A DNA stretch of 64,000 nucleotides. It comes from Antedon mediterranea (Eukaryota > Echinodermata > Crinoidea > Comatulida > Antedonidae). Shown here piece by piece: positions 8,006 through 38,342 of the stretch. Within the stretch, counting starts at the first letter, position 1. Each line of letters starts with the position of its first letter. Below the pieces are notes generated by a model. That model made no database searches and was not told the DNA's origin. It worked only from the letters and a program-made list of their open reading frames with translations. The stretch is taken from assembly GCF_964355755.1 (NCBI RefSeq), contig NC_092675.1, positions 27,984,912-28,048,911 on the forward strand, in the 5' to 3' direction. A program made the position numbers and the translations under genes.

Positions 8006-8842
8006 ATGAAAAGAATAATATTTATGACACTATATTTGTCAATTTCCTTAGTTGCGGGATGCTATCTATATTCACCTCTCAATGTTAACAAAACTGTCAT
8101 AGAAGGTGAACACGTCTTCATGGGTTGTATTTTTCACTGTGATGGGAATAGAAAGTATATTGGACGGTGGACAAGAGCCCATGTAAACGTTATAGATACG
8201 GAACGGATGAATGTAGCCACACGTACCCGCCGAAATAACAGCGAAATAATAGTGAGTACGTCATTCAAAATTAATGACGCGAAAATAAAAGACGAAGGTG
8301 AATACCGATGTATTTTGATAGACCTCAGTTTAAATGCAATTGTAGGAACCTCCGATGGCTGTCACGTGCATGTGCTACAGTCACCAAGCGTATCATTTCC
8401 GGTCATTACATCCTCTAATCTTCAAAATGGCATAATGTCAGCAACTTGCATTACGGAGAAGGTTGTACCCAAGCCACACCTCTATTGGCTTCATCAAACG
8501 GAGACGCTCTATGCTGATAACGGAACACATATTATGATACAGACGATATCTGAAGTTGATAAAAAAGTAATTTGCATTATGCTTTGGTATACCGAAGAAC
8601 CACGTGTCCGTATTTATACGCCTAGATCTGATACAGGGCAGGATAAAACAGATAGCTATACCTCAGAATATGATAACATGCAGCTTCAATCCTCAGTGGC
8701 ACCTGGAAATGATGACAACAAGTTAAAAACACACAGTTCATACGTAATAATTACCGTAATAATTTTTTCTCTAATAATAATTATTATTATGCCTAAGTAT
8801 TTGTTGGCAAATAAGAAATCAGCAATTAGATGCACAACATGA
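8006..8842 (+). CDS. IgSF receptor, family A, member 1 (two Ig-like domains, TM)
   Basis: A predicted type I surface protein of 278 aa in one exon. The first ATG of the frame at 8006 gives a hydrophobic signal peptide (residues 1-18); the frame upstream opens only with TTG. Domain 1 is V-type: Cys41, Trp55 and the F-strand motif DEGEYRC (Cys102). Domain 2 has Cys148, the YW pair at 160-161 and Cys190 within VICIMLWYTEEP, a block conserved in all three family A members. Cys19 and Cys119 are also conserved and may form an extra disulfide. One membrane segment (about 246-262) is followed by a ~16-residue tail without tyrosine motifs. N-glycosylation sequons include NKT, NNS and NGT. Paralogues are at 25403 and 37554. 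Function is unknown; recognition at the cell surface is inference from the fold and the cluster. Confidence 0.85.
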   Translation: MKRIIFMTLYLSISLVAGCYLYSPLNVNKTVIEGEHVFMGCIFHCDGNRKYIGRWTRAHVNVIDTERMNVATRTRRNNSEIIVSTSFKINDAKIKDEGEYRCILIDLSLNAIVGTSDGCHVHVLQSPSVSFPVITSSNLQNGIMSATCITEKVVPKPHLYWLHQTETLYADNGTHIMIQTISEVDKKVICIMLWYTEEPRVRIYTPRSDTGQDKTDSYTSEYDNMQLQSSVAPGNDDNKLKTHSSYVIITVIIFSLIIIIIMPKYLLANKKSAIRCTT

Positions 8843-8935
8843 TACTCTAGATCGAGAAGCGTTAAAAGTATAATAAAGTCGAGTGAAATAAGCCTGTACG
8901 GAGTATGATCGGCATACAATACATAGATAATATAA

Positions 8936-8945
8936 AATAAATAAA
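8936..8945 (+). other. Polyadenylation signals after A1
   Basis: Two overlapping AATAAA hexamers lie about 95 bases after the stop codon of A1, a normal distance for an animal mRNA 3' end. Confidence 0.55.
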
Positions 8946-9210
8946 AATTTAATTCATATTTTACACAAGCATATTTATTGGTGTTTGTTTAATATCATGG
9001 GTCTAGGATTATAGTACAATATCAATGTATCAATTTGTCGTATAGGCCTATACAAAATAAATTTACATTTTTGTTATGGATATATTTGTGCTATGTCTTT
9101 AGTAAATTTTATCTACAATGTTATGTTATTTTTTATTTTTGCAGTTTATGAAATATCTCCGGCATTGATTTTTAAAGTAAGAATCATATCGTTCTACGTC
9201 CTATAGGCGG

Positions 9211-9279
9211 CTAGAAAACTCAGATCTAGAAAACTCAGATATATCTGAGATCTTAGTTTTCTAGATCTGAGTTTTCTAG
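9211..9279. repeat. Near-perfect palindrome, ~33-base arms
   Basis: The strand reads CTAGAAAACTCAGATCTAGA... and then returns as its complement ending TCTAGATCTGAGTTTTCTAG. Each arm itself holds two copies of a ~15-base unit (TCTAGAAAACTCAGA). The tract could form a cruciform or an RNA hairpin. It lies downstream of A1 and is not part of a recognised transposon. Confidence 0.85.
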
Positions 9280-12155
9280 ACACCCATTATAGGCACGGTT
9301 CGTCACAACATATTTTCTGATCATGGTACGAAAACGTCTATTTAACTGTTGACCTAGTTCCTTTGATTAAAAAAACACGACTCAAGTAAAAACATAATAA
9401 CATTCCAGCACTTTCATGATTCAATCAACATTTATTAACGGCTATATACAAAAGCGAGACGGTACGTTTAACACATAACTCAATTCGTTCTTGCTTTTAT
9501 TGTGTTGGGGGCAGACGTAGTGTGTGGTTGACTTGACCATAATCCGTATAAATGAGGTTTGACCCCCCAAAAACAGAAGGTTTTAATTAACTGTTTTATC
9601 TAGTTTGGTAGGGTGTGTGTGGGGGGTGGGGGTGCTTACCATGAGTAGCACACTCAAAATAGGACAAAATCGGAACACCGGAATGGGTTTAATTTGCATA
9701 TTTTTATAAAAATAATTGCGGCCATTTTTATAAAATGTCTATAATCTCCGCAAGAGAGCTGATTGTATGTCCGAATGTTCACAATATATTTACTCTATGA
9801 TGAGACAATGATACATTTTGTCAAAAAAATGACCAGAACTACGATTTCTGACCTTTTTTGACCTTTCACCTGTGTATTTTTGTATCTCAATATAACTATT
9901 GGTGACACAAAGATACAACTGGACGGAAGATGGTCAGCGAGCACGTATGTTTATATTTGTTATATATTATACAATTGTGTGTCACGGGGTGACTGAAACC
10001 ACAGTATCATTTGACATAATTCACTCAAGTAAAACGTCCATTAAAATTATAGTTAATTATAGTATATTGTTGTAAATGTTTCGTTTCATACCAAGTAGGC
10101 CTATTGACATTTGAACCAATCAACAACAAAAAAAGATTGCTTATTGTGCAGAGTGGCACCGGTTTGTTTTAGTTTTTGACTCAAAATTCTAAATTGCTGT
10201 GCTGTTTAGTGGTACTGATAGATATTTGGTATGAATACATTATGCTATATATACCGTATTTATTCGAATAAACGCCTCCCTCGGATAAACGCCTTCAAAT
10301 GGCATCATTTTGAATAAACGCCGCCCTCTGTATCACCCACTAATGTAACAATTAACCACTAAAACCACTATTTACGACAAGTTAGCAACAACTGGAGCGT
10401 ACAACTGGCAGAACACGCCGCGGAATTTTCAAAAGTTTATAATTCAGAACGAATAATAGGCCTACTTTCAATTTTAGTCACTTAATAACAATAGTCGTTC
10501 TTCTATATATAAATTTACGTAAGGGCAAAATTCGGTAAATCGCGCCTTACTTCTAGAATTTTTACTCGATGGTATATAAAGTTGGTTCGTACTTTCGGTA
10601 CTGATTTTAACCACCTGATGTAATCCTGTTTACTAATTAAATTAAGTTAGATAATTAGTTATTGACGATCAAAACGAATTTAGGTTCAACGATTTGCCCC
10701 AAATAGGGGTGTTTTCCGATCGTGGTATACACTGTCTAATGGATGTCCATCTTGAAAAATACCCGCCACAAAAATGCCAGGAGGCTTCGCATTTTCCTAT
10801 CTCCTACGATAATTGTTTTTATTAGCTGAAAACCGGTTGAACAGCTAGAGTACAGCATCATAATGTTGAAGACAGGCCGATTTTCTTTAAAAAATACTAT
10901 TTTGATAGATTTAATATACGATTATACAAATGTATTGATTTGCGATGAATGGAACATCCCAATCTCTCAGTCTGCCAGAGTTTGGTTTAACACAAGTAGG
11001 TAAATTCATGAGCCCTTGGTTTAACACATACGGTAGGTAAATATATGGGCCCTTTGGGAATAAACTTGCAATACTTTGACAATACTGTAAATACCTATTA
11101 ACTATTTTTGGTCCTCATTTGAATCGAACATTTCTTACTGTGAATGTTCGTACTGTTAGATGTAATATAAAAATATATACAAATAAACTTTATTACTGAG
11201 ATTGTGGTTAGGCTTCACTGTTAGATATATAAACACATTATTATATACAAATAAACTTTATACTGACAGTTCCCTCTCAACGTTTGTATTAATTATTAAT
11301 TAATAATTACCAATTTATATAAACGTCGTAGTGGTGTATCGTGACATATACTTTAATATTTCAATTGATTATGACAGTGACAGTTTTAACAAAGTATTAA
11401 ATCGCAAATGTTTTACTGTATTTAGAGGTATATTATTTATAGGCCTATAAAACGTGAACAAAATATTTCGTTACTGAGTGGATAAAGAATATATTTAAAA
11501 ATTGTTCCTCGTTGTACCTATCCGTTTTCCCATCCCTCAAACCTAATGTTACATACAAAACACAAATTGAGTTTCTTTAAATGAAAAAATTGAGTCCAAA
11601 TCAAAAATTTGGACTCATTTTGTGATAAGTTTCTCCTTCGGAAGTAATTCACAGGGTGCTAATTTTAGTTGACTACATAAATCATCGTGTCTATTTATTC
11701 GTTTCTGTAAACGACAATGTATTATAATTATAATAGTACATTTGAAATCGCCAGTTTTGTTACGCTGAAATTACTGTGTATTCGAGAACCATCTGTGGGC
11801 ACGACCTAGATGGTACGCGAGCGAAGCGACCGTAAAGGTAAAGCACAAAGCTTCTAATAAGCGCTTCAAATTGTTACCCTCGTCATTTTTTTGTATCAAA
11901 CACATAATATGTACAGTCTCATAATGCAGCTAGTAATCAGCGCAATTGTGTTTTGTACCTTGTGAGGTACACATTTGTACATCTGGGTGGAGAGACGCAA
12001 ACAAGGGATAAAAGCAATGCGACGAGCGTAGGATTCGACCAATTTTGACCAATCGCAAGCGATGAATTATTCGAACTCGAAGCGTTTACGTCCTAGTGGG
12101 AACCAAGCTTAAATGATCCGGCCCACATACTAGCCTAGGCCTACAACCTAGGGAT
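9280..12155. other. Intergenic region between A1 and B1
   Basis: No gene is recognised. About 10250-10330 contains three spaced copies of a GAATAAACGCC-like unit after ACCGTATTTATTCG, probably the end of a small transposon. TAGGCCTA octamers occur at about 10100, 10460 and 11440. The rest is AT-rich and shows no coding frame of note. Confidence 0.4.
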
Positions 12156-12159
12156 AACA

Positions 12160-12225
12160 ATTCAATTCAATTCAACTTTTATTTCAGACAATTGTCCATA
12201 TGGTATAATACATTACAAAAAAAAA
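12160..12225 (-). mobile_element. Possible LINE 3'-end remnant
   Basis: An AATTC/ATTCA microsatellite passes directly into cttttatttcagacaattg. Short 3' microsatellites of this kind end CR1/L2-type LINEs, here read on the minus strand. No coding part remains, so the call is tentative. Confidence 0.3.
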
Positions 12226-12445
12226 GATGAGGGAGAGAGGACCAAAACTTTTATCCATTTGTAGTTGTCGTTCGAGTATTATCATTTTGTTTTAAAAATG
12301 AGTTTATTAAATCAAATATTAATTATGTAATTCATAGTTGGGTATATCTCATTATGATGTATTAATACGTGTAAACAAAAGTACAATTGAGAGTAAAGAG
12401 TTTCTGTAAAACAAACCTTACCATACCAAATTATTTTTTTAATTG

Positions 12446-12562
12446 TTTGAAAGTAATGCTCTGATAAATAGTGTGGTGTCCTTTTATTGATCATGAACAT
12501 CTCAATAAACGAACTGCTTGTGATACATACTATTAGTTTCGAAATGGAGCTAGGTATATAAG
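12446..12562 (+). promoter_or_regulatory. Conserved upstream block of B1, with TATA-like box
   Basis: This block aligns with blocks at 16780-16895 and 35480-35600 upstream of the other family B genes. Shared strings are TGTTTGAAAGTA, a CTTTTATT followed by TCATGAA, and a GAGCT/GAACTG-rich part. In B1 it ends in TATATAA (12555-12561), about 210 bases before the ATG. Conservation between three paralogues amid diverged flanks suggests promoter function. Confidence 0.55.
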
Positions 12563-12769
12563 AAGTCCGAATATACATTTTAGTTCATTGACGGACATTC
12601 TTACGGACCAGGATAATTATTATTGCTATATATAATTATTGTCAGACTTCTTATTTGAATTTCATCGCGATTTGTAGGCCTATTATGTTCATCTTAAATC
12701 TGTATTTTATTTTTACAATTGCAATAAATCAATAAATATAATTCTACTGAACCAATAAAAATTGGAATT

Positions 12770-13942
12770 ATGGCATGTGCATTTTCAATCTCTCATCTCA
12801 TCGTTCATTTATTTGTTTTATCAATTGGCGAAGGCAGCTTCAACATTCACTGTAATCCAGAAGATAGAATGGATTCTTTTATTGGTGAAAAAGCCTACTT
12901 CAGTTGTCAGATCAATCGTCTAATTATTTCAACGCAAAACGCAAACTTCACTGTTAAGTGGATTCACAATGGGTATAATCTAGTGAAAACCGAACATGTA
13001 CCGGTAAACACAACTGGGTATACCATTCATGTTTCACTAAGCTTTAATAATTTAAGTACATCTCATACCGGTGAATATAGAGTATCGGTGATGGATAATA
13101 TTGATAAGAATTTCCTTTCTGATCCTATCGAACTCTTTGTTTGGCCACCGCCATTCGTAAAACTTTGCAACGCTTCTAGATCGCATTACTCTAGTGGTGA
13201 AGTGGCTACATTGAATTGTGTGGTAACCTCTCCAGCTAGATACTCGTTGTATTGGTCAATTGAACCAGAAATGCGGGATGTTGCTTATGTGAACACCACT
13301 GATTTTAATGGTAAAACGAAGAATGTAAGTATGATGTTCAACGTTACGTTGTCAGACCAAAATACATTTAGCTGTTTTATAAAAGGACTAAATTCGTTTG
13401 AAAGGAAGCTTTTGTGTATATTAAAACCATTATTCGAATTTTTCGCCATAGATAGCCTTCAGATTCTGTCTTCTACATTTATTCTTGGTAAGAATGCTCA
13501 GTTGGAATGCAAGTATACTGAAATAATGACTGTACATATTGTTGAGGCGTTTGCTAAAAGAGATGATATATTACCAGACGCGCAAAATGTATATTGGGTC
13601 TCAAACAACTCTGCAGTAAACAAACAAATAGAAAAGGGTAATGGCACAGGATTGCTGACATTGAAAAACATTTCTTCTGACATCAACTACAGTAAAATTA
13701 CTTGTATAGTTGGCCAATGGAACATTTCTACTATCATACAAGTTGTAACAGGATATGCAACAACAACTGTACAACTGACAACTCTATCAAATACACATAC
13801 CAGTATTGAGACAATTACAAATAAAAACGAAACATACTTATACATTTTAATTGTGGTTAGAACAAATATATTATTCGTGGCGAGTATAACGATTATCTAT
13901 TTTCTGTACACACAAATTAAACGTACATACTACAACGTCTAA
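12770..13942 (+). CDS. IgSF receptor, family B, member 1 (three Ig-like domains, Arg in TM, short tail)
   Basis: A 390-aa predicted type I membrane protein in a single exon. A hydrophobic signal peptide (about 1-20) precedes domain 1, with Cys28, Cys46 and Trp64. The F-strand position reads GEYRVSV, so the usual second cysteine is missing. Domain 2 begins after FVWPPPF and holds GEVATLNC, a Trp and NTFSC, plus a flanking pair of cysteines (KLCNAS and LLCILKP). Domain 3 has QLEC, YWVSNNSAVN and YSKITC. The membrane segment (about 356-380) contains Arg364 near its outer end (VVRTNILF); only about ten residues follow. By analogy with vertebrate receptors such as FcalphaRI and LILRA, an arginine here can bind an ITAM adaptor; that is inference. 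Paralogues: 18419 and 35685. Many N-glycosylation sequons. Confidence 0.87.
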   Translation: MACAFSISHLIVHLFVLSIGEGSFNIHCNPEDRMDSFIGEKAYFSCQINRLIISTQNANFTVKWIHNGYNLVKTEHVPVNTTGYTIHVSLSFNNLSTSHTGEYRVSVMDNIDKNFLSDPIELFVWPPPFVKLCNASRSHYSSGEVATLNCVVTSPARYSLYWSIEPEMRDVAYVNTTDFNGKTKNVSMMFNVTLSDQNTFSCFIKGLNSFERKLLCILKPLFEFFAIDSLQILSSTFILGKNAQLECKYTEIMTVHIVEAFAKRDDILPDAQNVYWVSNNSAVNKQIEKGNGTGLLTLKNISSDINYSKITCIVGQWNISTIIQVVTGYATTTVQLTTLSNTHTSIETITNKNETYLYILIVVRTNILFVASITIIYFLYTQIKRTYYNV

Positions 13943-15995
13943 GTAAGTACCTTGTACCAAGTACCGGTACTATTATAAGTTTTTTTTATTTAGGTATTAG
14001 GTTATTTTTAAGTATTCTATCGCTGTTAAAAAAACGAGTAAGGTTAATCATTTTTGTTTTTTATATTGTAAAATAAGTATTTAAATATGAAGAAAAAGTT
14101 AATTACAGAAAATGAACAGTTAAACCAGGGGAGACATTTTCACCCTGGTTCAACATTGCGCGTATAGGCCTAACCATTCTTAATTATCTAATGCAAATAA
14201 GTTGGCCTAAAGGCACTATAAATAGGCAGTGTATATTTTATAACAGTAAACCTATAGCTAGTATTTAAATTGTATTGTAAAAAAATGGTTGAGGCATACT
14301 TATGTATTATACTTGTCTATAAAGTAACGAGTTATTTAAGCTTTAAATCTATTCTATTACATGCTTATCGGTAAATAGATCGGTCGATGAGAGGAGGTAC
14401 AGGGATGGGAAACACTGACGTGAGATTGTTTAGGAATGATAATCTGAAAACATACCAGCTTATGTTAAACAAATCAATGACAAAGACAACTTTTAACTTT
14501 AAAAAAAATATATTTTTAGTGAACTAACTTAGTGTGCTAACTTATATAAGGTTGTTATTGAGAAGATTGTACTAAATATGCCAAGATTGTTTTTAAATAA
14601 TTATGTACATTTTTAACGTAGATCAGATATAGCAAGTTATGTTCGTAATAATCATTTAAATGTGTGTGCTAAGGCTTGCAGTAGGCCTACAAAGTTACTC
14701 CAATTAAAATATGATTATTAAAAATACGGCACTGGACTGAAATTAGTTTTAAATCTGCACTTTTTAAGATATAGATCTCATACATTGACATTTTAAGCTT
14801 GAAATTAAACATGTCCATTATCATATAAAAACTGAGCTTCATCGATTAAATTACAGTTAAGATTGTTACAAAATATCTTTTTTTTTTATGCAATTATTTT
14901 TGTCTCACCTTTTTTACTCTATTTTTTAAAATTAATTGCTGTTTTATTGGAAGAACCAGACTTGAAAACCTTTCCTCACAGAAACTAATGTTTTGTTTAC
15001 ATAACCAATTACAGAGGGCAGCACACTATTTCAATCGTATATTACAAACTAATAGTATCAATGAACCAATAGGTTCTTGATATTACTTGATAGTGCTTGT
15101 TACATCTGATTATAAATCTAAATTAAATCAATTTTTATCTCATCATAATTGATAGAATAATTACAATAATATAAAATCGTGTTTCTCTACTCAAAACATA
15201 AAATCTTCAATCAGGTCGAAGTATAGAATATATCTATGTCTTTGAACCACTACTGTCTCTTCTTCAGTACAGTAAGGGTCTACAATGGATGGCTATATTG
15301 ATACAGTAATATAGCATAAACGCCAGTTAAATAAAACCTAGTAGACCTACCGTTTGATTTTACAATCATTCGGGAAATTATTTGTGTTTTGTTTACTGCC
15401 GTACGTTGGTTTGTAATATAATATGAATACCGGACGTTATTCCTTATTTTAATATTTAGTAAGCTTAGATCTAACAATAAACGCATCGTACTGATTGCCC
15501 TGAATTCATTTAACATACGATACTTGTATATCATGATTGTCATATCAGCCAGTAATTCATAGTGTTCGTGGTCGAGTATTAGAACTTCCTGACAAAATGG
15601 AGGTGTGGTTACATGAGGTATTCTTTATAACTTTCTGGGGAGACCAGTTCGCTGGTTTTTCTTGTAAACATAAATGCATTGCCGACCGACCCAGTATGTG
15701 AGGTTCTACTGCACGGCAACCCTCACACAAAATACATACATTTTTTTCAATCAGATTTTGAATATGCCATTTTGCACTTTTCATAAAGTTAACTGACAGA
15801 AAATTTGGCTAATAGTTTGCTTTAAATATAGCTATAGGTAAATAGTGAATAACTATAATAATGTGAAATTAAAATGGCATATACAACAAACAAGGCCAAC
15901 AGCCATAAGTCGCGTGCTCTCAGAAAAAAATGAACTTTCAAAAAGTAATGTACATCAAAACAGTTCAAAAAGTTCAGAAAAGCGATAAAACGCAT
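13943..15995. other. Intergenic region between B1 and B2 units
   Basis: No gene is recognised. A short hairpin, AACCAGGG...CCCTGGTT, lies at about 14123-14151 in the likely 3' region of B1. A minus-strand frame at 15557-15784 has an interesting look but no support. Confidence 0.4.
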
Positions 15996-16002
15996 AGTAT
16001 AC

Positions 16003-16190
16003 CGGACCGACAGACAGACCGACAGACCGACAGACCGACCGACCGACCGACCGACCGACATAGTGAACTATTGAGTCGCGTCCACGCGACTAAAAACAAG
16101 GCCATATACATGGTTGCTCAAGTGTTGACCAACCGACCGACATAGTGAGCTGTGGAGTCGCATTGCACGCACGCGACTAAAAATGTGTTC
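16003..16190. repeat. (GACC)n tract with repeated GTCGC/GCGAC hairpin unit
   Basis: A GACC/GACA microsatellite runs into CATAGTGAACTATTGAGTCGCG...CGCGACTAAAAA. The unit repeats at about 16128-16180 (CGACATAGTGAGCTGTGG). An inverted relative lies at 48659-48765 and includes the neighbouring CAAGGCCATA...CATGG string. It behaves as a dispersed repeat with a built-in microsatellite. Just downstream (16199-16222) is a decayed end of the TTAA element seen at 915. Confidence 0.65.
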
Positions 16191-16289
16191 AATTGTCTTT
16201 GCAGGGGAACAATAAATCTTTAATAAGAAAAGGAAGCGCTGAAACAATTATTAAAAATAGAGTGTATACTAATACACATTGTTTACGAG

Positions 16290-18418: not shown

Positions 18419-20620
18419 ATGCTCAGCAACAGAGTGGGTCTATTTGTCATTGTAATACTGCAGGTTTTTGCTGTAACACCTGTCAAAAGCGATGTCAATA
18501 TTAGCTGTAATCCAGTTGGTAGAATTGATGTTTTCATTGGTCAAGAGGCGTCCATCTGTTGTAAGGTCAATCGTCCAACTAGTTCGCAAAGAGTAATCGT
18601 CACCGCCAAGTGGTTTCACAACAACAGTGATAATGTCGTAAAAGTCGAGAATATATCAGTACCTTCAACTGCTTATGTAATTAATATTTCACTAAACCTT
18701 CATAATTTAACAATATCCAACAACGGGAAATATAAAGTATCGGTGAAGGATAACATGATAAAGACAAATTTACTTTCTGATCCTACCACACTCTTTGTTT
18801 GGCCATCGCCATCTGTAAAAGCCTGTAACGCATCTAAATCACATTACTCCAATGGTGAAGTAGCTACATTGAATTGTGCAGTAACCTCTCCGGCTAGATA
18901 CGCGTTGACTTGGTCAACTGAATCAGAGGAAGATTTGTCTTTAGTAAACATTTATACAAATGGTACAAGGAAGAATGCAAGTATGATGTTCAACGTTACG
19001 TTACTGTCCGATCAAAATACATTTAACTGTTTTATAAACGGAATAAATTCTTTGGACAGAAAGCTGCTGTGTACATTAAAGCCTTTATTTGAATCTGAGG
19101 TTATATATCTTCAGCTTTCATCTTCTCCATTTATTATCAGTGAGAGTTCTCAGTTAGAATGCAACTTCACTGAAACAATGACTACACTTATACATATTGT
19201 GGACGCATTTGAAAGAAATGACATTTTTTCAAATGTTAAAAATGCATATTGGATCTCCAACAATTCTGCAATAAACAAACAAATAGAGAAAGGTAACAAC
19301 GCGAGCAGGCTGACATTGAACAACATTTCTTCAGATATGAACTACAGTAAAATTACTTGTATAGTTGGTCAATTCAACACTTCTACTATCATAAATGTCT
19401 CAACAAAGTATACAACAATAAAAACCACAACTCATCTAAATAATGATATACTTACACCATTTAAGGCTACTGATAAACCTACCACTTTCTTTATTGCAGC
19501 TACCATAGGTTCACTTGTACTAGTAACTTTTCTCATAACGTTGATAATATGTTGTGTTATGTACAAAGTATATCATAAACACGATACTGAATCAACAAGC
19601 ATACGATACCCCGAGACTAGGCTTAACCAACATAGCATGCCAGCTGGAATAAATACAAACATACAGATTGGACTTGACGTGTCTACAATAAATACAGAAG
19701 AAGCATTCGAAAACATTTATGACGAAATCAATGAAGTGATGCCATATCGTTATTGCAGTAGGCCTACAATGCATATACCGGAGTTTAACACATCGTTTGA
19801 AAACAGGAAAGAACTATCTACGAACCAAGCGAATGAGATACTACAATTATTATCAAGTCCGAATTATACAGAGGTTAGAAATACAAATGTTAAAAAGGGT
19901 GGAGAAAAGAACCAAATTGTTCGACTACATAATCAACAAACATCATTACCTGGAATAAGCACAAACCAATCAACCATATCCCTACCAAGAATGCAATTAG
20001 TTGAAACTTTTGGTAATGGCGTTTTAACAATAAATCGAAATAAAACGTTGGACAGTGCCGAAAACATGACAGAGGATTGCATTAACACATCGAAGTGTAA
20101 AACATCTGTTAATAGGCGTTCAGTTGCTCGTTTTACAAACATTAATAAAATGCATAATACAGGCTTACTTCAGCTATTATCAAGTCCAAATTATGCCGAA
20201 ATTAAAAAGGAAGGTGATGATGGTAAAATCACGTGTTATTCAGAAAATACGGTAAAAAATAAAGAAGAAATCAAGATAGTTGGCCCACCAGATAATCATA
20301 TATATTTAGATAAAAATACAAACCGATCGACATTTGATGGACCTACAGGACTTGAAATGACTACACATAGAGTATCAGATGGTTATGACGAAATAAAAGA
20401 TGGGCCATATGATTACAGTAGGATACCACATGGAAGCAGCAGTGGCAGCATAGAAAGCAGGATACAGTTGAATGTCATGACGAATGTAACTGACAAGGAC
20501 AACTTTACAATACTTCAACTATTATCTAGTTCACACTACGCTGAAGTTAACACTAGTAATGATGAAACAAGTACGTGTTTTTCAGAAGATAATGTAATTA
20601 CAGAAGACACTAATATATAA
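18419..20620 (+). CDS. IgSF receptor, family B, member 2, with ITAM and SH2-ligand repeats in a long tail
   Basis: A 733-aa predicted type I receptor in one exon. Signal peptide at about 1-24, then three Ig-like domains like those of B1 and B3. Domain 1 again lacks the F-strand cysteine (GKYKVSV). Domain 2 has GEVATLNC and NTFNC. Domain 3 has QLEC, YWISNNSAIN and YSKITC. The membrane segment (357-382) has no charged residue, unlike B1 and B3. The ~350-residue tail holds YDEIKDGPYDYSRI (Tyr656 and Tyr666), an exact YxxI-x6-YxxI ITAM. It also holds three copies of a LQLLSSPNYTEV-type repeat at Tyr483 (YTEV), Tyr592 (YAEI) and Tyr707 (SHYAEV, which fits the ITIM consensus). A degenerate ITAM-like stretch starts at Tyr434 (YDEI...YCSR). 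Such motifs bind SH2 kinases or phosphatases once phosphorylated in other animals. Signalling here is inference; the motifs are seen directly. Confidence 0.88.
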   Translation: MLSNRVGLFVIVILQVFAVTPVKSDVNISCNPVGRIDVFIGQEASICCKVNRPTSSQRVIVTAKWFHNNSDNVVKVENISVPSTAYVINISLNLHNLTISNNGKYKVSVKDNMIKTNLLSDPTTLFVWPSPSVKACNASKSHYSNGEVATLNCAVTSPARYALTWSTESEEDLSLVNIYTNGTRKNASMMFNVTLLSDQNTFNCFINGINSLDRKLLCTLKPLFESEVIYLQLSSSPFIISESSQLECNFTETMTTLIHIVDAFERNDIFSNVKNAYWISNNSAINKQIEKGNNASRLTLNNISSDMNYSKITCIVGQFNTSTIINVSTKYTTIKTTTHLNNDILTPFKATDKPTTFFIAATIGSLVLVTFLITLIICCVMYKVYHKHDTESTSIRYPETRLNQHSMPAGINTNIQIGLDVSTINTEEAFENIYDEINEVMPYRYCSRPTMHIPEFNTSFENRKELSTNQANEILQLLSSPNYTEVRNTNVKKGGEKNQIVRLHNQQTSLPGISTNQSTISLPRMQLVETFGNGVLTINRNKTLDSAENMTEDCINTSKCKTSVNRRSVARFTNINKMHNTGLLQLLSSPNYAEIKKEGDDGKITCYSENTVKNKEEIKIVGPPDNHIYLDKNTNRSTFDGPTGLEMTTHRVSDGYDEIKDGPYDYSRIPHGSSSGSIESRIQLNVMTNVTDKDNFTILQLLSSSHYAEVNTSNDETSTCFSEDNVITEDTNI

Positions 20621-20755: not shown

Positions 20756-20827
20756 GACCCAGTGGTCTAATGGTTAGGACATCTGCATATCAAGCAGGAG
20801 GTCCGAGTTCGAATCTCGGTTGGGGCG
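20756..20827 (+). tRNA. tRNA-Asp-like gene or tRNA pseudogene/SINE head (anticodon ATC)
   Basis: A 72-base cloverleaf can be drawn. The acceptor arm GACCCAG/TTGGGGC has one A-G mismatch and a G-T pair. The D-arm is normal. The anticodon arm TCTGC-ATATCAA-GCAGG puts ATC at 34-36, and the T-arm is CCGAG-TTCGAAT-CTCGG. The A and B boxes are good. ATC would read GAT (Asp) and the discriminator is G, as in Asp tRNAs, but animals normally use GTC. There is no T-run just downstream. A pseudogene or SINE head is about as likely as a working tRNA. Confidence 0.5.
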
Positions 20828-21345: not shown

Positions 21346-21349
21346 TTAA

Positions 21350-25402: not shown

Positions 25403-26281
25403 ATGTTACTCTCAATAATAAACCATAACAAAGTAATTGGTATTCTACTGGTATTTATCCCAATAATTAGTGGATGCAGTTTAATTTCATCTCCAGATAC
25501 AACAACAACTGTGGTGAAAGGCAAAGCTTTTGTAATGACCTGTGTCTTTCACTGCCAAAGGAATCGAACCTACATTGGATCGTGGACAAGAGGAAACATT
25601 AACATAATAAACAACAGACATGGAATAACTACAATAAGTGCAACCTCTCACAATGCCAAGGGAACATTTGTAAATACTACATTAAGAACACACAACACAA
25701 AAGTAGAACATGAACATGTGTATCGATGCATTTTGAATGATCCCACTATCGATATAAACGTTGAAACTTCTGCTGGATGCTACTTAAACGTGTTGAAGCC
25801 ACCAAACTCAAAATTTCCACTCATTAATTCCAGAAGTCTTGAAAATGGCATAATGATAGCAACGTGTATTACAGAGAAAACTGATCCAATACCAGAATTA
25901 CATTGGCAAGATAAAAGTGAATCATTATTTGCTACCAATAACGTGACACACGTTGAAATTAATGGGATATTTAAAGTTGATGTGAAAGTGGTTTGTATTA
26001 TGCATTGGTACACTGAAGAACCACGATATGTTCATATCAGACCATCAAACAGTAAAAATACGACGAATTTGTATGCTGATGAAAAAAGGACGTTTTTGTC
26101 AACTACTGATGAACCTATATGGCAAACGGAAAAGAATGATGGAAAGTCTGAAAAAGAAACTAATAATAATATTTTAATTGTAATTAATGTTATTATTATA
26201 AATATCATCATTTTTTTCAACATTTTGTTTATCTATTGGCGTAAACTTAAACGAATTATCCGTCAGTCGACAGATGTCTGA
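25403..26281 (+). CDS. IgSF receptor, family A, member 2
   Basis: A 292-aa predicted type I membrane protein in a single exon, starting at an ATG that yields a signal peptide ending near ISG. The mature N-terminus has the conserved GC. Domain 1 has CVFHC, a Trp in GSWTRG and VYRC as the F-strand cysteine. Domain 2 has ATCITEKTDPIPELHW and VVCIMHWYTEEP. A serine/threonine/lysine-rich stalk leads to a long hydrophobic, Ile/Asn-rich membrane segment (about 252-276) and a basic tail (RKLKRIIRQSTDV) without tyrosine motifs. It aligns with the members at 8006 and 37554 along its length. The ligand is unknown, and the presence of a B gene on either side suggests a shared role. Several N-glycosylation sequons. 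Confidence 0.86.
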   Translation: MLLSIINHNKVIGILLVFIPIISGCSLISSPDTTTTVVKGKAFVMTCVFHCQRNRTYIGSWTRGNINIINNRHGITTISATSHNAKGTFVNTTLRTHNTKVEHEHVYRCILNDPTIDINVETSAGCYLNVLKPPNSKFPLINSRSLENGIMIATCITEKTDPIPELHWQDKSESLFATNNVTHVEINGIFKVDVKVVCIMHWYTEEPRYVHIRPSNSKNTTNLYADEKRTFLSTTDEPIWQTEKNDGKSEKETNNNILIVINVIIINIIIFFNILFIYWRKLKRIIRQSTDV

Positions 26282-26437
26282 AAGTATGTATTTTGTTTAA
26301 TTTCAAAGCGAACTTATTCTCACGAATCGAAAGCGGCGATTTTGATCATAATGCTTTTGCAGATTTTGCATTCGGGATATAGGCTATGTCAGTCATTTTC
26401 TTTTATATAGGCCTAACATTTGTACAGTTTCTGTGAG

Positions 26438-27090: not shown

Positions 27091-29692
27091 GTTGCCCCAA
27101 TGTCTTTAAATGATTTTGTTATTTAACTGTAGCTTTGAAATGTTTCTGTTAACACTCTTTAACAACAGGGTGCCTACGGGAAAACATGCATATTATTAAT
27201 AATTAATCTCCCCACTTTGGCACAGATGGTAGATTCTGCAAATAGGCCTAAATAATAATATATTACTTTGCCACACGGCATCTGAAAAATTGTGCATTGT
27301 AAAGTAAAACGATAAATAAAATCAATTGTTCAATACTGTTTATTATCTTCAATGTTGATTTGTGAATAATATAAGCTTTAGTAAAAAATATACAATTATT
27401 GATACAAAATGGAATAAAGTAAATTTTATATAAAAAAAATTATTGGTTTACAAATTTATGATAATTTCAAGATTTCGTTTTAAAATGTAACAATGCTCGC
27501 ACATTATTTATACAAATTAATAATATAAAACTAAAAACATGAAGTTTATAAATCTATAACAAACAACTATTGATCAAAGTATTTATTTGTCAAAATGTAA
27601 GGATGGCAAAATAATCAAACTGATAATACATAAAGAGGGGAAGCACACAATTATTTATAGACATTTCATATTGCATATTTTTTAAGTTTTTATTTTTAGA
27701 TATCCCAAAACAGTAAGTCATGAATTTTAAATTTAGTATACTAACAAATGTTTGCCTTTTACTGTATTATATAAATGTTTAGTATTTAATTTATATTTGA
27801 ATATGGCATTAATCATTTACAAACATTCATTCTACAATCCAAACTATTATAAAAATACATATAATTAAAAAATGTGGCTCAGAAATTAGCATATGAGAGA
27901 GGGCTTTTAAACAGCTTCAGCAAAGCCTAGACGATCTGCACCCTTGTCAAACTCGGTGTAGAACTTGCCCAAAAAGACGTCACCCAGAATCCACAGAGGG
28001 CCAGCTGGCGGTGCTACATCTAGAGCTTGGAAACCACTCAGACAAATGGTTTCACTCCCCTGTGCAAACTGAAATATAAACAAATAAAAGTTAACTAAAA
28101 GTTAATCAATCATGTTGAGCTTAAACCATTGTGACCCAGTTGCTAGAGACATCCAACAGGAGGAGTGCATTAGGAAAAAATTCTAGATATGATCCCAAAA
28201 ACTCAAATATATGTACCCTTTGTGAAACCATGTAATTGCTGTAGTAGAATCTTGGTAGTAGAGTTGTTGACTGCAATCTGGAACAGAACTATTATTGACT
28301 ACAGTCAAGTCTTCCAATACAAGACTCTCTGACAACCGGAAACTTTCCCAAAACCAGATTTTTCTTGAAAATTCACTTATACTATTAAAAATACACTCCA
28401 AATACAATACTTTCCACGAAACCATATATATTTTGCCAGCCCAAAGGTTTCCAGTATTTAAGAGTTTTTACCTAAACTTAAAGCTAATTTAACAAATACA
28501 GTTTTGACATACCTTGAGTACATAATCTTCACCCGTCAAGTTAAATGCCTTTCCGCCAAGAACAAAACCAATCTTTGGTAACGACGACACTTGATTGCAA
28601 TCAAATATGTACTGTAACAAGAAGATATAAAATAAAATGTATTTCAAATTTAATAGTGAATAATACTGCATTATTTAATATTTGCATAGGAGGTTTGGAA
28701 ACAACAAAATGCAGATGTGGATGGAAACCATTGCGAAAACGGTTTGTATATGTTCTTTTAGATTTTATAATCACAGTTTTGGAAAATGACTTTCTTTCCT
28801 TTTCCCCAGTAACCCATATATTATTTTGTGGATTCTTTTAACCCTCTTTATATTCCTTACTGAGCCTTGCATTTCTTTGGCACCAAGTTCTTTGTTGATA
28901 GCTAAGACATCAGTTGTAGGACCAGCAATTAAGGAAGTACCTGTATCAGCAATAGCTTCACAGCCCTTGGACAATATTTGGAACCACCTTGTGTTGCAAT
29001 GCAGAAAAATATACATAGATATTTTATTTTCTCATAAAGGAAAGAATTACTAGCACTATGAAATTGTTTAAGACCTATTTAAATATATATAAAATGTTTG
29101 TATTTCATAGTCAGGTCGACGTTATCTGCAATAAGGTATCAAAATACAGTTGTGCATACAGGACGTATTATGAAGCCTAAACTTTATTTTAAATGGAACA
29201 CTTATATTGTTCACGTTTTTCTTTTCTTCTACCCTAATAATATGCTTTGGCATTACCATATATTGATTTTAGAGACCTATTTATCTTTATATATAAATTA
29301 TATAGATTTTCTGAAATGAAAGTGAAGATAAATGAATACATCAATAATATTGACAACAATAAAAACTACCGCATGTGATCATTACAACAAAAAGGAACTA
29401 TTTATAATTTTAGAAACAAAAATCAATATAAAATATATGTGGAGTGTTTGTACACAGTGATAACAAATATTATTATCTATATTCCGTCATTTTTTCTCTC
29501 AAAATTACTCGACCAAACTCTCGCAACACCGACTTATTTTCCCTTGCCCGTTGTCGAGTCAACGTAACCAAAAATGGTTTCATTTAAAGATTATCCAAGC
29601 TTTTTAATTCAATTTCTATTAAAGATAAGACTATCGATATTTTTTTTGACACTTTGTCCAAATTTAAGTCTAAAGTTCTTAAATCGATTTAA

Positions 29693-31299: not shown

Positions 31300-31303
31300 T
31301 TAA

Positions 31304-32351: not shown

Positions 32352-32880
32352 CTGTCCATGTTAAATTGCCAATAACCTTTCTTGGTAACTTTCTCATAAG
32401 AAAAGTTACCTTTGTAGTACTTTGGGTCTGATCCTCCCAAAATCAGTTCTCCACCTGAACTATCATTTGTATTTCTGAAAAATAATATTTGACATTTATA
32501 CAATGTTATTGTGATATAGTATATTAAAACAATTTTACATTAAGAAGAAATTGTTAAATATAATAAATACAATAAAACTACTTTTACAACTTGCACTACA
32601 ATTTATTTCATTTCTTTATGGGGAAGGGATTTTGAGGATACTCTCATCAATTTGTACCTACCAACTCTTACGCATAATGCGGAAGTCTCATGCATGAGGC
32701 CAGATTGTTTTAGTCGTGTGCAATGCTATTTCCCGCACATCCATACAAATATTCAGAAAAAACATTATTTTGAAATGAACTTGCCGATTTTGAGGAAAAA
32801 AAGCCTAGGACTGCACATTATTTAATTAGTTTGAGAATAATTAGCCTAGTTAAGTAGGCCTATGTTTGTTTGTATTTATG

Positions 32881-33289
32881 GTTAACCCATTGACCCCTAA
32901 GTTCATTTTGCTAAAAAGGGACCTAAAAAGCATGTCACGTCATAATTAACCATAACTTTTTTTTTAAAGACAAAAATTCAAAAAATCAAAAAAGAAAAAT
33001 AATGCAAAGGACATTTTCTTTTCAAATATGTTATCAAATTTGTGTTACAACTTATTTTGCCGGAGTATGGATTATGCAAATTTTAGAAATATTTTAGGAA
33101 AATTACTAAACATTTTTAATTTATCTTTGACGTACTACCAAAATTACTAAATAATTGAATAAAACTATATCTCTTCAGCAGAACCTATTTCATCAAAATA
33201 AGACCAAACTTGACCATTATGAATGACCGGTTTTGAAATTATGAATAAATTAGTAGACGGACTCATCCGTCGATGACCATATGGGGCCG
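32881..33289. other. Non-coding gap
   Basis: AT-rich, no feature recognised after the end of the segmental duplication. Confidence 0.35.
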
Positions 33290-33445
33290 GGATCCAGTCA
33301 AATCGCCCCATCGCGACTTTGCAATGGGGCGACCTTGTGATGGATGACTTTGCGATGGGGCGACTTTGTTTTGGGGCGACTTTGCGATGGGGCGACCTTG
33401 TGATGGATGACTTTGTATGGATGACTTAATGGGGCGACTTGACTA
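33290..33445. repeat. GC-richer minisatellite (GGGGCGAC/GATGGATGACTTTG units)
   Basis: Units GATGGGGCGAC.TTG and GATGGATGACTTTG alternate about nine times. A 33440-33570 continuation has a different decayed motif (CTAAGA-TCACGAAA/CCTAAGAC). The 62-residue frame on the minus strand is the repeat read through (VIHHKVAP...), not a gene. Confidence 0.8.
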
Positions 33446-33570
33446 GCTTCCATGGGGCCTAGGCCCATCACGAAACCTAAGATCACGAAAGCTAAGACTC
33501 CCTACTAAGATCTAAGATTACGAAACCCAAGACCCAAGAGCAAGACCTAAGACTTAGCTAAGATTACCAA

Positions 33571-34158
33571 CAAATCTCTATCGCACCTGCCTTGTATTTT
33601 AACTCTAAATTTGTTAACCAACTTATTCCGAATACCACACCTTATAATTAGATGAAGAAGAATCAATAAATAACAATAGATTCTTTAAATAAATTGATGA
33701 TTTTACAGACGTTTTCTCATGCGAATCTCGCATACTCTATGTTCAATATCATGTTTCTATGGAACGCCAAAGAGCAACATTAATGAAGGGCTAAAAACTA
33801 TGCGGAATCCATCTATTTAATTCATTTTTTTGGTGAAAATCATGTTCAATTCAATATATGTTGTCACTGTTAATACAAATAAAATGTTACTGTTGATACT
33901 TTACACGGTTTCGTTAACGTTAAGAAAAGAAATCGACAAATTCATCATATCCCCTTACTAGGCCTAGGGTAAGTAGTGATGCTTATTTTCAGATCGATTA
34001 ATATTCTTTGAAAATAGAAAAGTATCAGCAGTAACATATTACAGCATTTTTATTGACAAATTGACAAAATATATTGAACAAATTAAATGTGCATTTCACC
34101 AATAAATTCCATCAAGTTGTTAGCCCTCTAACTCTATTATTGTTGCTCGCTCTTTTCT
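33571..34158. other. Non-coding gap
   Basis: AT-rich, no feature recognised. Confidence 0.35.
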
Positions 34159-34608
34159 CGTAAATCTTCTAATTGTAACCCTGGGTTATTATTCTTTGTT
34201 TTTTTGTTTCTATTTTTTGTTTTTTTAGGATGGGTTACTATTAGGGTAGTGGGTTACTATTACTAATCTTAAAAAAGGCACTTGAAAATAGTAACCCACC
34301 CCAACTTTTCCGGCCAGCAAATCATAGCAAAATAATAAAAATTACGAATAAACAAATTTATTTGAACTCTAACTTTATTTTATAAACTCAAAAACACTCA
34401 ATCAACATGCATTATCTCTTTATTTTCAAAATACGGTGACCAGTCTTAATAATGTCATTTTGTCAATAGTTTTTGTGACTCTAATATTAACCCCATGGGT
34501 TACTATTAGAGAAGTGGGTTATTATATAGATTGACTTATAAGGTGGGTTACTATTAGAAGGGGGGTAATTTACTATTAGAGTGTGGGTTACTATTAGAAG
34601 ATTTACGG
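34159..34608. mobile_element. Inverted-repeat element with GGGTTACTATTAG subterminal repeats
   Basis: The ends CGTAAATCTTCTAATTGTAA and TTACTATTAGAAGATTTACG are inverted. Inside, about seven copies of GTGGGTTACTATTAG lie in both orientations, mainly on the right. Multiple short subterminal repeats are typical of transposase binding arrays in non-autonomous DNA transposons. The family is not assigned. Confidence 0.68.
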
Positions 34609-35479
34609 TAGTTGTTTAGTAAAACATTGCACACATACACTTAGACGACATTATTACAATACTAAACTAAGGTAGCCTACATCAACTAAATTATGTGAAT
34701 AATGTTATGATAAAGATGAGTAGGAATTACTCCATAAATATTTAAAGTAATCACGAAGTAATTTTTAATCTATAAAATAGATTATTTTTATGGATTGTGA
34801 TAGGTGTATTCATGTAAATGGCATATACTCTAAAAATACGGTACACAATAACTGTAGATTAAGGTATAAAATTAATTCTTTATTTTATAATATTGTTCAT
34901 TTCCCTTTCTCCATGAAAAACACGATATTGTATACGTAATTTACTTATCCGTCCCTGCCTATCACATGCAGTGAAGCAATGTTAAGCAAAAAGTGCAGAA
35001 CATGTACTTTCTGTTTTCGTCGTTACTTTCAGAAGCGTGATCAAACTATTAATTTATGTAATATTAATAACAATATGAAAGTTGTATTATTTCTGTCATA
35101 GCCATCGGCACGCTATGCTGGTATCAAAATTAATTTGTCTTTGATTCTTTAAAAACTATATAATAACAAATATATATAGTATTAGGCCTGTACTTGATAA
35201 TGATATTTTAATTTAAAGAATACAAAAGTAAAATAAAAATTTAGCACAAAAAAGTTAAGGATTTTGTACTAAATTTATAAAAAGTAGAAAGCGATATTTA
35301 TAATAAAAATGTAAGCAAGTTATTCTTAATCAAAATATCCTATACAAAAATTATCTTAACCGGTCCATAGATATTAACAAAAAATGGGCTAAATCAAATG
35401 TGATAATAACAAAGTGATAATAACAAAGTTTATTGGTGAGTACTATTATATTAAAACAAAACTTAACTATTCATTTATC
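34609..35479 (+). promoter_or_regulatory. Upstream region of B3, partly conserved with B2
   Basis: The string TTACTTTCAGAAGCGTGAT followed by ATTTATGTA (35020-35065) matches the region at 16300-16345 upstream of B2, so a longer duplication unit included far-upstream DNA. The remainder is AT-rich and unassigned. Confidence 0.45.
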
Positions 35480-35600
35480 GAAACTGTTTGAAAGTATACC
35501 TAGACTAATAGTCAGATTACTTTTATTCTTCATGAAACAGTCCATAAGTGATGAGCTGTCCATGCTATTTGTTGGTTTTAAATATAGATATGTAAGAAAG
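35480..35600 (+). promoter_or_regulatory. Conserved upstream block of B3
   Basis: Shares ACTGTTTGAAAGTA, TTACTTTTATTC.TCATGAA and GATGAGCTGTCCATGCTA with the B2 block, and more loosely with B1. It lies 85 bases before the ATG. AT-rich TAAATATAG-type sequence takes the TATA position. Confidence 0.5.
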
Positions 35601-35684
35601 TCGAAGACGGATACATTGTTTAATTTGTGTCAACAACTTTTTGTAAGTTTCTCAAAGATCATACAGTTCTACTGAATTAAAATT

Positions 35685-36857
35685 ATGGCGTGTAGAGTAT
35701 TTTGCATGTCTCATGTCATACTGCACGTAATACTGCATATTTTTGCTTTAACACGTAGCAAAGTTAACGCCAATATCCATTGCAAGCCAGTGGGTAGAAT
35801 TGATTTTTTCATTGGTCAAACAGCCTACATCAGTTGCCAGATAAATCGTGAAACTATGAGTAGACCTAGTTCGGAAAACGTAACAATAACTGCTAAGTGG
35901 ACGCACAATAGCTATAATCTAGTAAAAACTGAGAATTTACTCGCAAACTACACTGTGTATACAGTTGATGTTTCACTGAGACTTAATAATTTAAGCATAT
36001 CTGACGGCGGTCAATATAGATTATTTGTTACGGACACCGTTGGTACTACATTGCTTTCTCAACCTGCTACCGAAATCTTTGTTTGGCCAGCGCCGTTTAT
36101 AGAAGTGTGTAACGCATCTAAATGGCAATACTCCAATGGTGAAGTAGCTACATTGAATTGTGCAGTAACCTCTCCAGCTAGATACTCTTTAACTTGGTCA
36201 ATTGAGCCACAGATACAGGATTTTGTTTTGGTGAACACTATGGATGGTATAACAAAGAATATAAGGCTACTGATTAACGTTACGTCACTGATCGATCAAA
36301 ACACATTTAGCTGTTTCATAAGCGGAATAAATTCTTTGGTCAAAACAAATTTGTGTACATTACAACCTATGTTCGAATATGTGGTCATAGACAGCCTTCA
36401 AATTGTATCTTCTCCGATTAATCTTGGTGAGAAGGCTCAGTTAGAATGTACATTCACTGAAGTAATGACTTTACATTTTTTGGATAGGTTTGCTAGAAGG
36501 GATGACATTTCTAGCGTTGAAAATGTATATTGGATCTCAAATAATTCTGCAGTAAACAAACGAATAAACCAAATTAATAACAAAAGACTGCTGATATTGA
36601 ACATTTCTTTTGAAATGAACTACAGTAAAATTACTTGTATAATTGGTCAATGGAACATTTCTACTATCATAAAGGTTTCGAAAAATTATGTTACTACTGT
36701 ACAGCCCAGTATTAACACAATTAAGAACAACAATGACACACGCTTATACATTTTAATTTTTGTCAGAACTATACTTGTAGCACTTCTTATCATAATACTA
36801 CTTATTTTGTGTACAAAAAAAATCATACGTAGGCCTATAACAAGGCTGAAACCGTAG
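35685..36857 (+). CDS. IgSF receptor, family B, member 3 (three Ig-like domains, Arg in TM, short tail)
   Basis: A 390-aa predicted type I membrane protein in a single exon, the same length and layout as B1. A signal peptide (about 1-27) precedes domain 1, which has NIHC, YISC and a Trp but GQYRLFV in place of a YxC. Domain 2 (GEVATLNCAVTSPARYSLTW, NTFSC) and domain 3 (QLEC, YWISNNSAVN, YSKITC) are close to those of B1 and B2; domain 1 is the most diverged. The membrane segment (about 354-376) has Arg361 near its outer end (IFVRTILVALL). A basic 14-residue tail without tyrosine follows. By analogy this is a receptor that needs a signalling partner. Family A member 3 follows 700 bases downstream on the same strand. 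Confidence 0.87.
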   Translation: MACRVFCMSHVILHVILHIFALTRSKVNANIHCKPVGRIDFFIGQTAYISCQINRETMSRPSSENVTITAKWTHNSYNLVKTENLLANYTVYTVDVSLRLNNLSISDGGQYRLFVTDTVGTTLLSQPATEIFVWPAPFIEVCNASKWQYSNGEVATLNCAVTSPARYSLTWSIEPQIQDFVLVNTMDGITKNIRLLINVTSLIDQNTFSCFISGINSLVKTNLCTLQPMFEYVVIDSLQIVSSPINLGEKAQLECTFTEVMTLHFLDRFARRDDISSVENVYWISNNSAVNKRINQINNKRLLILNISFEMNYSKITCIIGQWNISTIIKVSKNYVTTVQPSINTIKNNNDTRLYILIFVRTILVALLIIILLILCTKKIIRRPITRLKP

Positions 36858-37553
36858 TCGTACATCATAAGCCTACTTGATAAATTGTATAGATGTATGG
36901 TATTTTCATCCAACAATACGTCAGTTAAAAGATTTTAATTTGTTTAAATATTATTTTCATTTCTGTTTAATGTATTATGACAGATATGGAGGTAGTCCGT
37001 ACCTTTATTAGGTAGTTGTATAGGGTGCGCGGGTGTTACAGTAGACAAACTATTTTATAGACTACGAATCTCCAAAGGTAATAATAATTCGGGCTCTGCA
37101 CGCACCAGTACAAGATTCTATATACCACTATGTACCACAACAGAGAAAAATTTCACTCGATAAAACCGGAATATAATAATATAGACGTTGCATAAAATCA
37201 TTCAGACACCTACAGAATGAGTCGATGGATCCAAAGGCGAGTACTACAAAAGACAGAATTGGCCCTCTACATATCAAGTCATTCATAAAGAAGCACTTCG
37301 TGTGAAGACACAACGATCACACTCTGTCAAGGTATTTTTTTTTATTCCCATTGGTTTGTTAAAAAGAAATTTCTAAATTCAATACATTGATCCAGTTGAT
37401 ATCGTTTTCAATCCGTTTATATTGTTTTCTGTTTGTTCAAACCATGTTTGTCACCAATCAGTTTCTTTTCTCTATTTCAGAAATAGTTCAATTTTTTCAC
37501 TAATCGTTACTGTGTCACCTCTAAACGGACAAAAGAAGAAGAAAATAACAATA
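36858..37553 (+). promoter_or_regulatory. B3-A3 intergenic space and leader of A3
   Basis: It contains a strong acceptor-like tract, CTTTTCTCTATTTCAG, ending at 37480, 73 bases before the A3 ATG. A1 has the same spacing. The frame upstream of the ATG opens only with TTG and does not make a signal peptide, so I place the start at 37554. Confidence 0.4.
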
Positions 37554-38342
37554 ATGAAACTATTAATCGTTATGATATTGGTTTCGTCGATTCCAATAGT
37601 TAGTGGATGCAAGTTACTTTCTTCTCCAGATTTGAACACAACTGTTGTGAACAACAATTCTATTTCACTGAACTGTGCATTCCATGCTTCCAAGAAAAAT
37701 GAAGTCTATTCTGCAGTGTGGACAAAGGAAGGCACTGAAATACCAAATTTGGCTGGGAAGCATACTGAAAACATAATTTCCCATAATAAAAGTGGCACAT
37801 TAATAAATAGTACTTTGCGAATAGATCACTCAAACATTAACGATGAGGGTAAATATCGATGTCTTTTGAAGGCTGGCGAAGTTAGTGTGGAGGCCTCTGA
37901 TGAATGTCAAGTAAATGTATTAAAGTCTCCAAGCACGATATTTCCACTCGTTACTACGACAAGTCTTGATAAAAGTGACATGATGAGGGCAACGTGTATT
38001 ACCGAAAAAACCGTGCCACTACCAAAACTGTATTGGCTTGATCAGAGGGGACCGTTATATGCTAATAACGCGACACATATAATAATTCATGAGATATTCA
38101 AAGTTGATGTGGAAGTGGTTTGCATTATGCGTTGGTATACGGAAGAACCACGAGTGAGTATATTTCCAAGAAATGTCAATACGCCTGATGACATGAAGAA
38201 GACGCTTCCACCGGCTGTGCAAGCGGAACACAAGCTGGATTCCTACCTTATCTGTATAATCTTCTTGAATATCTTTTGCTTGTTTTTATTATTTGTTATA
38301 TCTTTCCGCATATTTTATTGGAATGATTGGTGTAATAACTGA
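37554..38342 (+). CDS. IgSF receptor, family A, member 3
   Basis: A 262-aa predicted type I membrane protein in one exon. The ATG at 37554 gives a clear signal peptide (MKLLIVMILVSSIPIVSG). Domain 1: CAFHA (the second cysteine of the FHC motif in A1 and A2 is Ala here), a Trp in AVWTKEG and DEGKYRC. Domain 2: ATCITEKTVPLPKLYWLDQ and VVCIMRWYTEEPRV. The conserved extra cysteines (SGC at the N-terminus, DEC after domain 1) are kept. A strongly hydrophobic membrane segment (about 230-252) and a tail of about ten residues end the protein, with no tyrosine motif. It closes the cluster; no further Ig-like frame follows. Confidence 0.86.
   Translation: MKLLIVMILVSSIPIVSGCKLLSSPDLNTTVVNNNSISLNCAFHASKKNEVYSAVWTKEGTEIPNLAGKHTENIISHNKSGTLINSTLRIDHSNINDEGKYRCLLKAGEVSVEASDECQVNVLKSPSTIFPLVTTTSLDKSDMMRATCITEKTVPLPKLYWLDQRGPLYANNATHIIIHEIFKVDVEVVCIMRWYTEEPRVSIFPRNVNTPDDMKKTLPPAVQAEHKLDSYLICIIFLNIFCLFLLFVISFRIFYWNDWCNN

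Follow-up and report, generated by a model that had tools for sequence, protein, structure and literature searches.

The split between activating and signalling receptor ends is best known from vertebrate immune cells. A cluster of six genes in the crinoid Antedon mediterranea raises the question of whether an invertebrate locus works by the same logic. The cluster lies in a 64-kb stretch of the genome (assembly GCF_964355755.1, contig NC_092675.1, positions 27,984,912 to 28,048,911), referred to here in its full length as the window, and encodes membrane proteins with immunoglobulin (Ig)-like domains that fall into two interleaved families, A and B. We interpret it, tentatively and with somewhat less than even confidence, as an invertebrate cell-surface recognition cluster in which family B forms a paired-receptor set and family A supplies a linked ligand or co-receptor. 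If this is true, finding this split in so compact a locus outside the vertebrates would argue for repeated evolution of the logic, and the cluster would be a second invertebrate case alongside fester/FcoR of Botryllus. The small set of six genes would also offer access to the ligand, the adaptor and the sign of the signal.

Two interleaved gene families

The window has a GC content of about 32% and a CpG observed/expected ratio of 0.89, a value that speaks against a vertebrate source. It contains ten open reading frames (ORFs) of at least 120 codons, six of which are the receptor genes; the other four are two reverse transcriptases of long interspersed nuclear elements (LINEs), a LINE 3' fragment and an ORF at 39774 that was assigned to no family. 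As the initial annotation had stated, the six receptor genes lie on the plus strand and follow one another as A, B, B, A, B, A; all of them are intact, and blastp sorts their products into two groups. The three family A proteins are mutually 41–46% identical (E values of 2e-54 or better; A1 versus A3 and A2, 41–43%). Within family B, identity amounts to 58% for B1–B2, 55–56% for B1–B3 and 57% for B2–B3, which makes the ectodomains homologous across the two forms described below. Between the families there is a marginal match at the level of the Ig fold only (best blastp E 0.005); at the profile level the family B profile matches A1 with an E of 1e-4, and hhalign gives an E of 0.0012 with a probability of 19%. 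A six-frame search of the window for more A- or B-like exons returned only the six genes and noise, the best other segment having an E of 0.077.

Two forms of family B

The proposed division of family B into two forms is borne out by the ends of the proteins. B1 (12770..13942; 390 amino acids) and B3 (35685..36857; 390 amino acids) represent the short form, with an arginine in the membrane segment (R364 and R361, respectively), tails of 7 and 13 residues, and a common membrane motif, YILIxVRT. By contrast, B2 (18419..20620; 733 amino acids) has an uncharged membrane segment (uncharged run 354–382) and a tail of 351 residues (383–733, encoded by 19565..20617). Neither B2 nor any of the three family A proteins has a charged residue in its best 19-residue membrane window. 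The suggestion of a paired-receptor locus is thus applicable to family B, in which related ectodomains are joined either to a membrane arginine and a short tail or to a long, tyrosine-rich tail, while family A shows no such split.

The tail of B2 contains 13 tyrosines and six YxxI/V sites, compared with a mean of 2.4 in shuffled tails (P = 0.019). The narrower pattern Yx[ED][IV], which was chosen after the tail had been seen, occurs five times, a number reached in none of 20,000 shuffles; three of these sites are located within a repeat, LQLLSSxxY[TA]E[VI], whose copies are found at residues 475, 584 and 699. Of the claim that B2 has signalling motifs of its own, the excess of YxxI/V sites is supported. 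Individual motifs are not: YDEIKDGPYDYSRI at residue 656 has a spacing compatible with an immunoreceptor tyrosine-based activation motif (ITAM) but is within chance (shuffle P 0.05–0.09), and the same is true of SHYAEV, the single match to the pattern [SIVL]xYxx[LIV] of the corresponding inhibition motif (ITIM; shuffle P 0.50). Taken by itself, the ITAM pattern was rejected as evidence: across the window it matches 28 times, in 25 segments free of stop codons.

A mechanism can be proposed on this basis. Since the ectodomains of B1, B2 and B3, with about three Ig domains each, are related, the three proteins probably see related ligands. Adaptors of the FcR-gamma/DAP12 type combine an acidic membrane residue with an ITAM, and a separate adaptor of this kind would transmit the signal of B1 and B3 by way of their membrane arginine. 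B2, on the other hand, would signal by its own tail, in which phosphorylated YxxI/V sites would recruit SH2 proteins. An immune role is inferred, as is the type of cell in which it would be exerted.

Constraint and exon structure

In comparisons of paralogues, the ratio of nonsynonymous to synonymous divergence (dN/dS) is 0.39–0.45 in family A (dS 0.99–1.23) and 0.44–0.55 in family B (dS 0.56–0.61); with values in this range, the six genes look functional. The initial annotation had described them as intronless. This holds for the coding parts, which are single open frames in all six, and it is weakly possible that an intron is present in the 5' untranslated region. In the A genes, an acceptor-like site located 44–74 bases upstream of the ATG scores above 73%, 86% and 95% of random windows in a home-made matrix, so that an untranslated first exon is possible for this family; the corresponding scores of the B genes exceed 57–65% of random windows. 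The sequence GTAAGT immediately follows the stop codon of B1.

Single-exon coding parts could also mean that the six genes are inert retrocopies or decaying pseudogenes in a transposon-rich region, given that LINE reverse transcriptases, a LINE 3' fragment and partial copies of protease exons are found nearby. However, all six frames have stayed open despite a dS of 0.56–1.23, their dN/dS speaks against decay, and no long poly-A was found: runs of A within 600 bases of a stop codon reach 12 at most. Because a long poly-A is missing, a retrocopy origin draws no support beyond the absence of introns, and we consider this explanation very improbable.

Observations at odds with a paired-receptor set

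Several observations weigh against our interpretation of family B as paired receptors. B2 harbours one ITAM-like and one ITIM-like sequence, neither of which exceeds chance, and an opposition of inhibitory and activating forms is therefore not supported. No adaptor was recognized among the ITAM-like matches in the window, in a scan that does not cover the acidic membrane residue and misses split genes. Gene conversion was not detected: where the two proteins of a family B pair share residues, the longest stretches of codons that are also identical measure 12, 13 and 21 (permutation P 0.81, 0.64 and 0.18). In the first three windows of family B (leader and domain 1), dN is 0.27–0.44 compared with 0.16–0.25 in domains 2 and 3, yet dS is also higher in domain 1 (0.44–1.06 versus 0.27–0.75) and the dN/dS ranges overlap; the faster outer domain is therefore a hint and not the outcome of a selection test. 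Furthermore, a structural model of family B built from the three sequences is poor, with a mean predicted local distance difference test score (pLDDT) of 36.5.

The origin of the different B2 end is likewise less clear-cut than a modular scheme would have it. B1, B2 and B3 run parallel up to the end of the third Ig domain, where B2 diverges: nucleotide identity drops from 47/60 to 27/54 and 25/60 between B1 and B2, and from 48/60 to 8/33 and 24/60 between B2 and B3, whereas B1 and B3 stay at 24/33 and 40/60. Past the arginine, however, all three pairs are alike in a block made up of the latter half of the membrane segment together with the short tails (28/45, 29/50 and 30/47), and when B2 is aligned with B1 and B3 by tblastn, the match continues into the membrane segment. 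For these reasons the membrane segment of B2 may be related to that of B1 and B3 but diverged, instead of having been exchanged as a module; a clean swap of modules where the third Ig domain ends, which we had considered, is only partly supported. Remnants of a long tail were not found behind B1 or B3, where tblastn with B2 gives no additional match at E values up to 1. The short tail of B3 ends in IRRPITRLKP, and the aligned part of B2 near residue 397 reads IRYPETRLNQ; this resemblance may be due to chance or be a vestige of a formerly longer B3 tail.

Family A and the Ig domains

Family A proteins consist of a hydrophobic leader, an outer V/I-like domain, a C2-like domain, a stalk and an uncharged membrane segment. 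They comprise A1 (8006..8842; 278 amino acids), A2 (25403..26281; 292 amino acids) and A3 (37554..38342; 262 amino acids from the ATG), whose tails of 15, 13 and 11 residues, respectively, contain no YxxI/L/V; this agrees with the two Ig-like domains and the short tail originally assigned. The frame of A3 is open from 37377, and its ATG and hydrophobic leader are found at 37554. An earlier start had been placed at 37422, where the codon is TTG; the start of A3 is at 37554. In family A, too, gene conversion was not detected, with longest identical-codon runs of 8, 5 and 11 (permutation P 0.31, 0.75 and 0.07).

Four of the six proteins pass a Pfam cut-off for an immunoglobulin model: B1 (Ig_3, E 9e-10; five models above cut-off), B3 (Ig_2 and I-set), A3 (Ig_3, E 1.7e-8) and A2 (C2-set_2). 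A1, with an Ig_3 E of 1e-4, and B2 remain below all cut-offs. The CD80-like C2-set_2 model is above its cut-off in A2 only; it is below in A1 and unlisted for the whole of A3, a piece of which gives an E of 0.045. Three Ig-like domains had been ascribed to family B. Two of them are clear, while the third is weak, as it is matched solely by an IL18BP-type Ig model and below cut-off throughout (E 0.12 in B1, 0.036 in B3 and 6e-4 in B2). In domain 1 of B1, B2 and B3 the second Ig cysteine is replaced (YRVSV, YKVSV and YRLFV, respectively), and an additional cysteine close to the N-terminus is retained in all three.

Matches in the PDB are generic Ig for both families. With the family A profile, 55 matches were obtained at E values up to 0.1, headed by LRIG1 (2.6e-5) and Dscam (3.5e-4); CD276, ICOSL, PD-L1 and CD80 (0.0025–0.05) rank below these, and amphioxus IgVJ-C2 is also included. 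CEACAM6 (0.0038) comes first for family B, and Dscam has an E of 0.012. Structure prediction, which had been proposed as a check for Ig folds, gave a positive answer for the outer domain of A3, which is modelled as Ig (block pLDDT 68–86); the membrane helix of A3 is also well modelled, whereas residues 124–229 have a pLDDT under 50. For family B the prediction was poor, as mentioned above. By fold, the outer domain of A3 matches, among others, Ig domains of LRIG, PTP-delta, DIP-theta and Dscam, as well as T-cell receptor and shark VNAR domains.

Matches of this sort would suit locally duplicated neural or epithelial adhesion molecules, similar to DIP/Dpr, Dscam or nectins, in which tail length is ordinary variation and no immune role is involved, all the more so as LRIG1 and Dscam lead the profile matches of family A, and CEACAM6 and Dscam those of family B. 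Ig-fold matches, however, say nothing on function. The coexistence of a long-tailed paralogue with ones that have a membrane arginine and hardly any tail is not known to be typical of such adhesion families, and the dS of 0.56–1.23 between local copies, together with the faster outer domain, is more suggestive of turnover than of conserved wiring roles. We therefore regard an adhesion cluster as rather unlikely.

If family B is a paired-receptor set, family A, with two domains and no signalling tail, is most likely its linked ligand or co-receptor; an interaction between A and B proteins is itself a prediction. A stricter partnership would be a heteromeric receptor in which each A protein binds the ligand and signals through the neighbouring B protein, as proposed for the fester/co-receptor pairs of Botryllus. 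Along the locus the genes can be grouped into three doublets of one A and one B each (A1B1, B2A2 and B3A3), B3 and A3 are separated by 696 bases, and in Botryllus FF, without a known signalling motif, and the long-tailed FcoR form neighbour pairs (PMC12065747). However, A/B doublets arise in 8 of the 20 possible arrangements of three A and three B genes, for which reason the alternating order was rejected as a meaningful signal. Moreover, the long signalling tail is present in one B member and missing in two of the three, whose pairs would still need an adaptor, and the 1.5-kb upstream stretches (plus strand, E up to 0.1) share a single 15-base match, between A1 and A2. Such heteromers are conceivable, but we think them unlikely.

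Comparison with known systems

Vertebrate paired receptors such as KIR, LILR, SIRP and CEACAM have related ectodomains on long tails with tyrosine motifs or on short tails with a basic membrane residue. Family B displays the same split, a long tyrosine-rich form and a short-tailed arginine form with related ectodomains; it differs in that the long tail of B2 is not clearly inhibitory and in that no gene conversion was detected. The coding sequences of KIR and LILR are multi-exon, each Ig domain being encoded by one or two exons, as opposed to six single open frames here. By analogy, the cluster would resemble vertebrate paired receptors in its way of working, yet it is not KIR or LILR by exon structure. 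Paired CEACAMs with opposing tails are known, and ectodomain gene conversion is reported for those of Xenopus (both PMC5112662). KIR or LILR chains are absent from the PDB matches of B3 (n = 9, E up to 1) and of the family B profile (n = 3, E up to 0.1), by a method that is weak at this distance, and no KIR or LILR entry is among the 50 fold matches listed for the outer domain of A3, which excludes nothing.

A model for the linkage of families A and B, with its predicted interaction, is the NKR-P1:Clr system, in which receptor and ligand families are interspersed in one locus (PMC4041007); these proteins are C-type lectin-related, whereas the families described here are Ig. It is tempting to combine a KIR-like membrane-tail split with an NKR-P1:Clr-like receptor–ligand linkage into an invertebrate locus with single-exon coding parts that interleaves paired receptors with a ligand or co-receptor family and originated independently of vertebrates, although we consider this combination doubtful.

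By organization, and judged by description, the closest system found is FF/FcoR of Botryllus schlosseri (PMC12065747). There, as here, two linked families of membrane proteins are neighbours, and known signalling motifs are missing from one of them. The other, FcoR, combines Ig domains and a sushi domain with a tail that is long, as in B2, and carries an ITIM, hemITAM or YxxI/L/V core. FF and FcoR are encoded by several exons and alternatively spliced, whereas the coding parts described here are single exons, and family B, besides its long-tailed member, includes short forms that have a membrane arginine. At E values up to 1, Pfam assigns a sushi domain to none of the six proteins, and the cluster is therefore not a member of FF/FcoR. 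The allorecognition family Alr of Hydractinia, with 41 members in one complex, and oyster CgIgIT2, which has five Ig domains, a transmembrane segment and an ITAM, are invertebrate members of the Ig superfamily as well; compared by description, their domain sets differ, and the available part of PMC11999971 describes neither an interleaving of two families nor a short arginine-bearing partner for them. Parts of the ITAM/ITIM pathway are reported in Botryllus and Hydractinia (review PMC12065747), which makes such signalling plausible in an invertebrate.

Relatives were sought in several sequence collections. A protein collection gave no match for B2 or A2 at E values up to 1e-3, or for the family B alignment up to 10. 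When viral contigs were scanned by a pattern-seeded approach, the alignments of the two families yielded 161 and 29 pattern matches; a scan of this kind over prokaryote genome contigs with the family B alignment yielded 16. By tblastn, none of all these matches proved to be a relative. Because the collections searched are, to judge by their descriptions, poor in animals, this absence says little. No description of this locus was found in titles and abstract openings of the literature, a search in which subscription journals were mostly outside the scope.

Genomic neighbourhood

The cluster is surrounded by mobile elements and split exons. LINE reverse transcriptases are located at 4823–7693 and 52951–55743, and a LINE 3' fragment at 58249–58746. 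The 3' part of a LINE is present in two copies, 4494–5513 and 57910–58936, which are 98.5% identical; a recently active element therefore flanks the cluster. Of ten additional segments that were scanned, five have a match to eukaryotic aspartyl protease, and each of these five lies on the minus strand. They include an exon at 59382–59633, closest to cathepsin D chains (E 1.3e-20), another exon at 60119–60331 (Pfam), and three partial copies of a third exon, at 50658–50999, at 42400–42633 with a broken frame, and, between A2 and B3, at 28774–29031 (Pfam Asp, E 4e-7). The last of these contradicts the assertion that no other coding gene is found between the six genes. It is 79% identical to the copy at 50658–50999 over 63 codons and is contained in a block (27.3–29.0 kb) that is about 90% identical to 49.3–51.0 kb. 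The locus is rearranging. A viral capture of the cluster was considered and rejected, since the split protease exons and LINEs around it indicate a host chromosome.

A tRNA-Asp (atc)-like sequence (20756–20827; Rfam, 52.8 bits) likewise lies between the receptor genes, just behind B2, and is perhaps a tRNA-derived short interspersed nuclear element. The octamer TAGGCCTA, which is common in echinoderm sequence and, as a lead only, may be a marker of the lineage, occurs 33 times in the 64 kb, compared with 2, 9 and 12 occurrences of three other six-base palindromes. In the region 43134–47834, a unit of about 1.5 kb occurs three times in tandem, and two of the copies are 97% identical.

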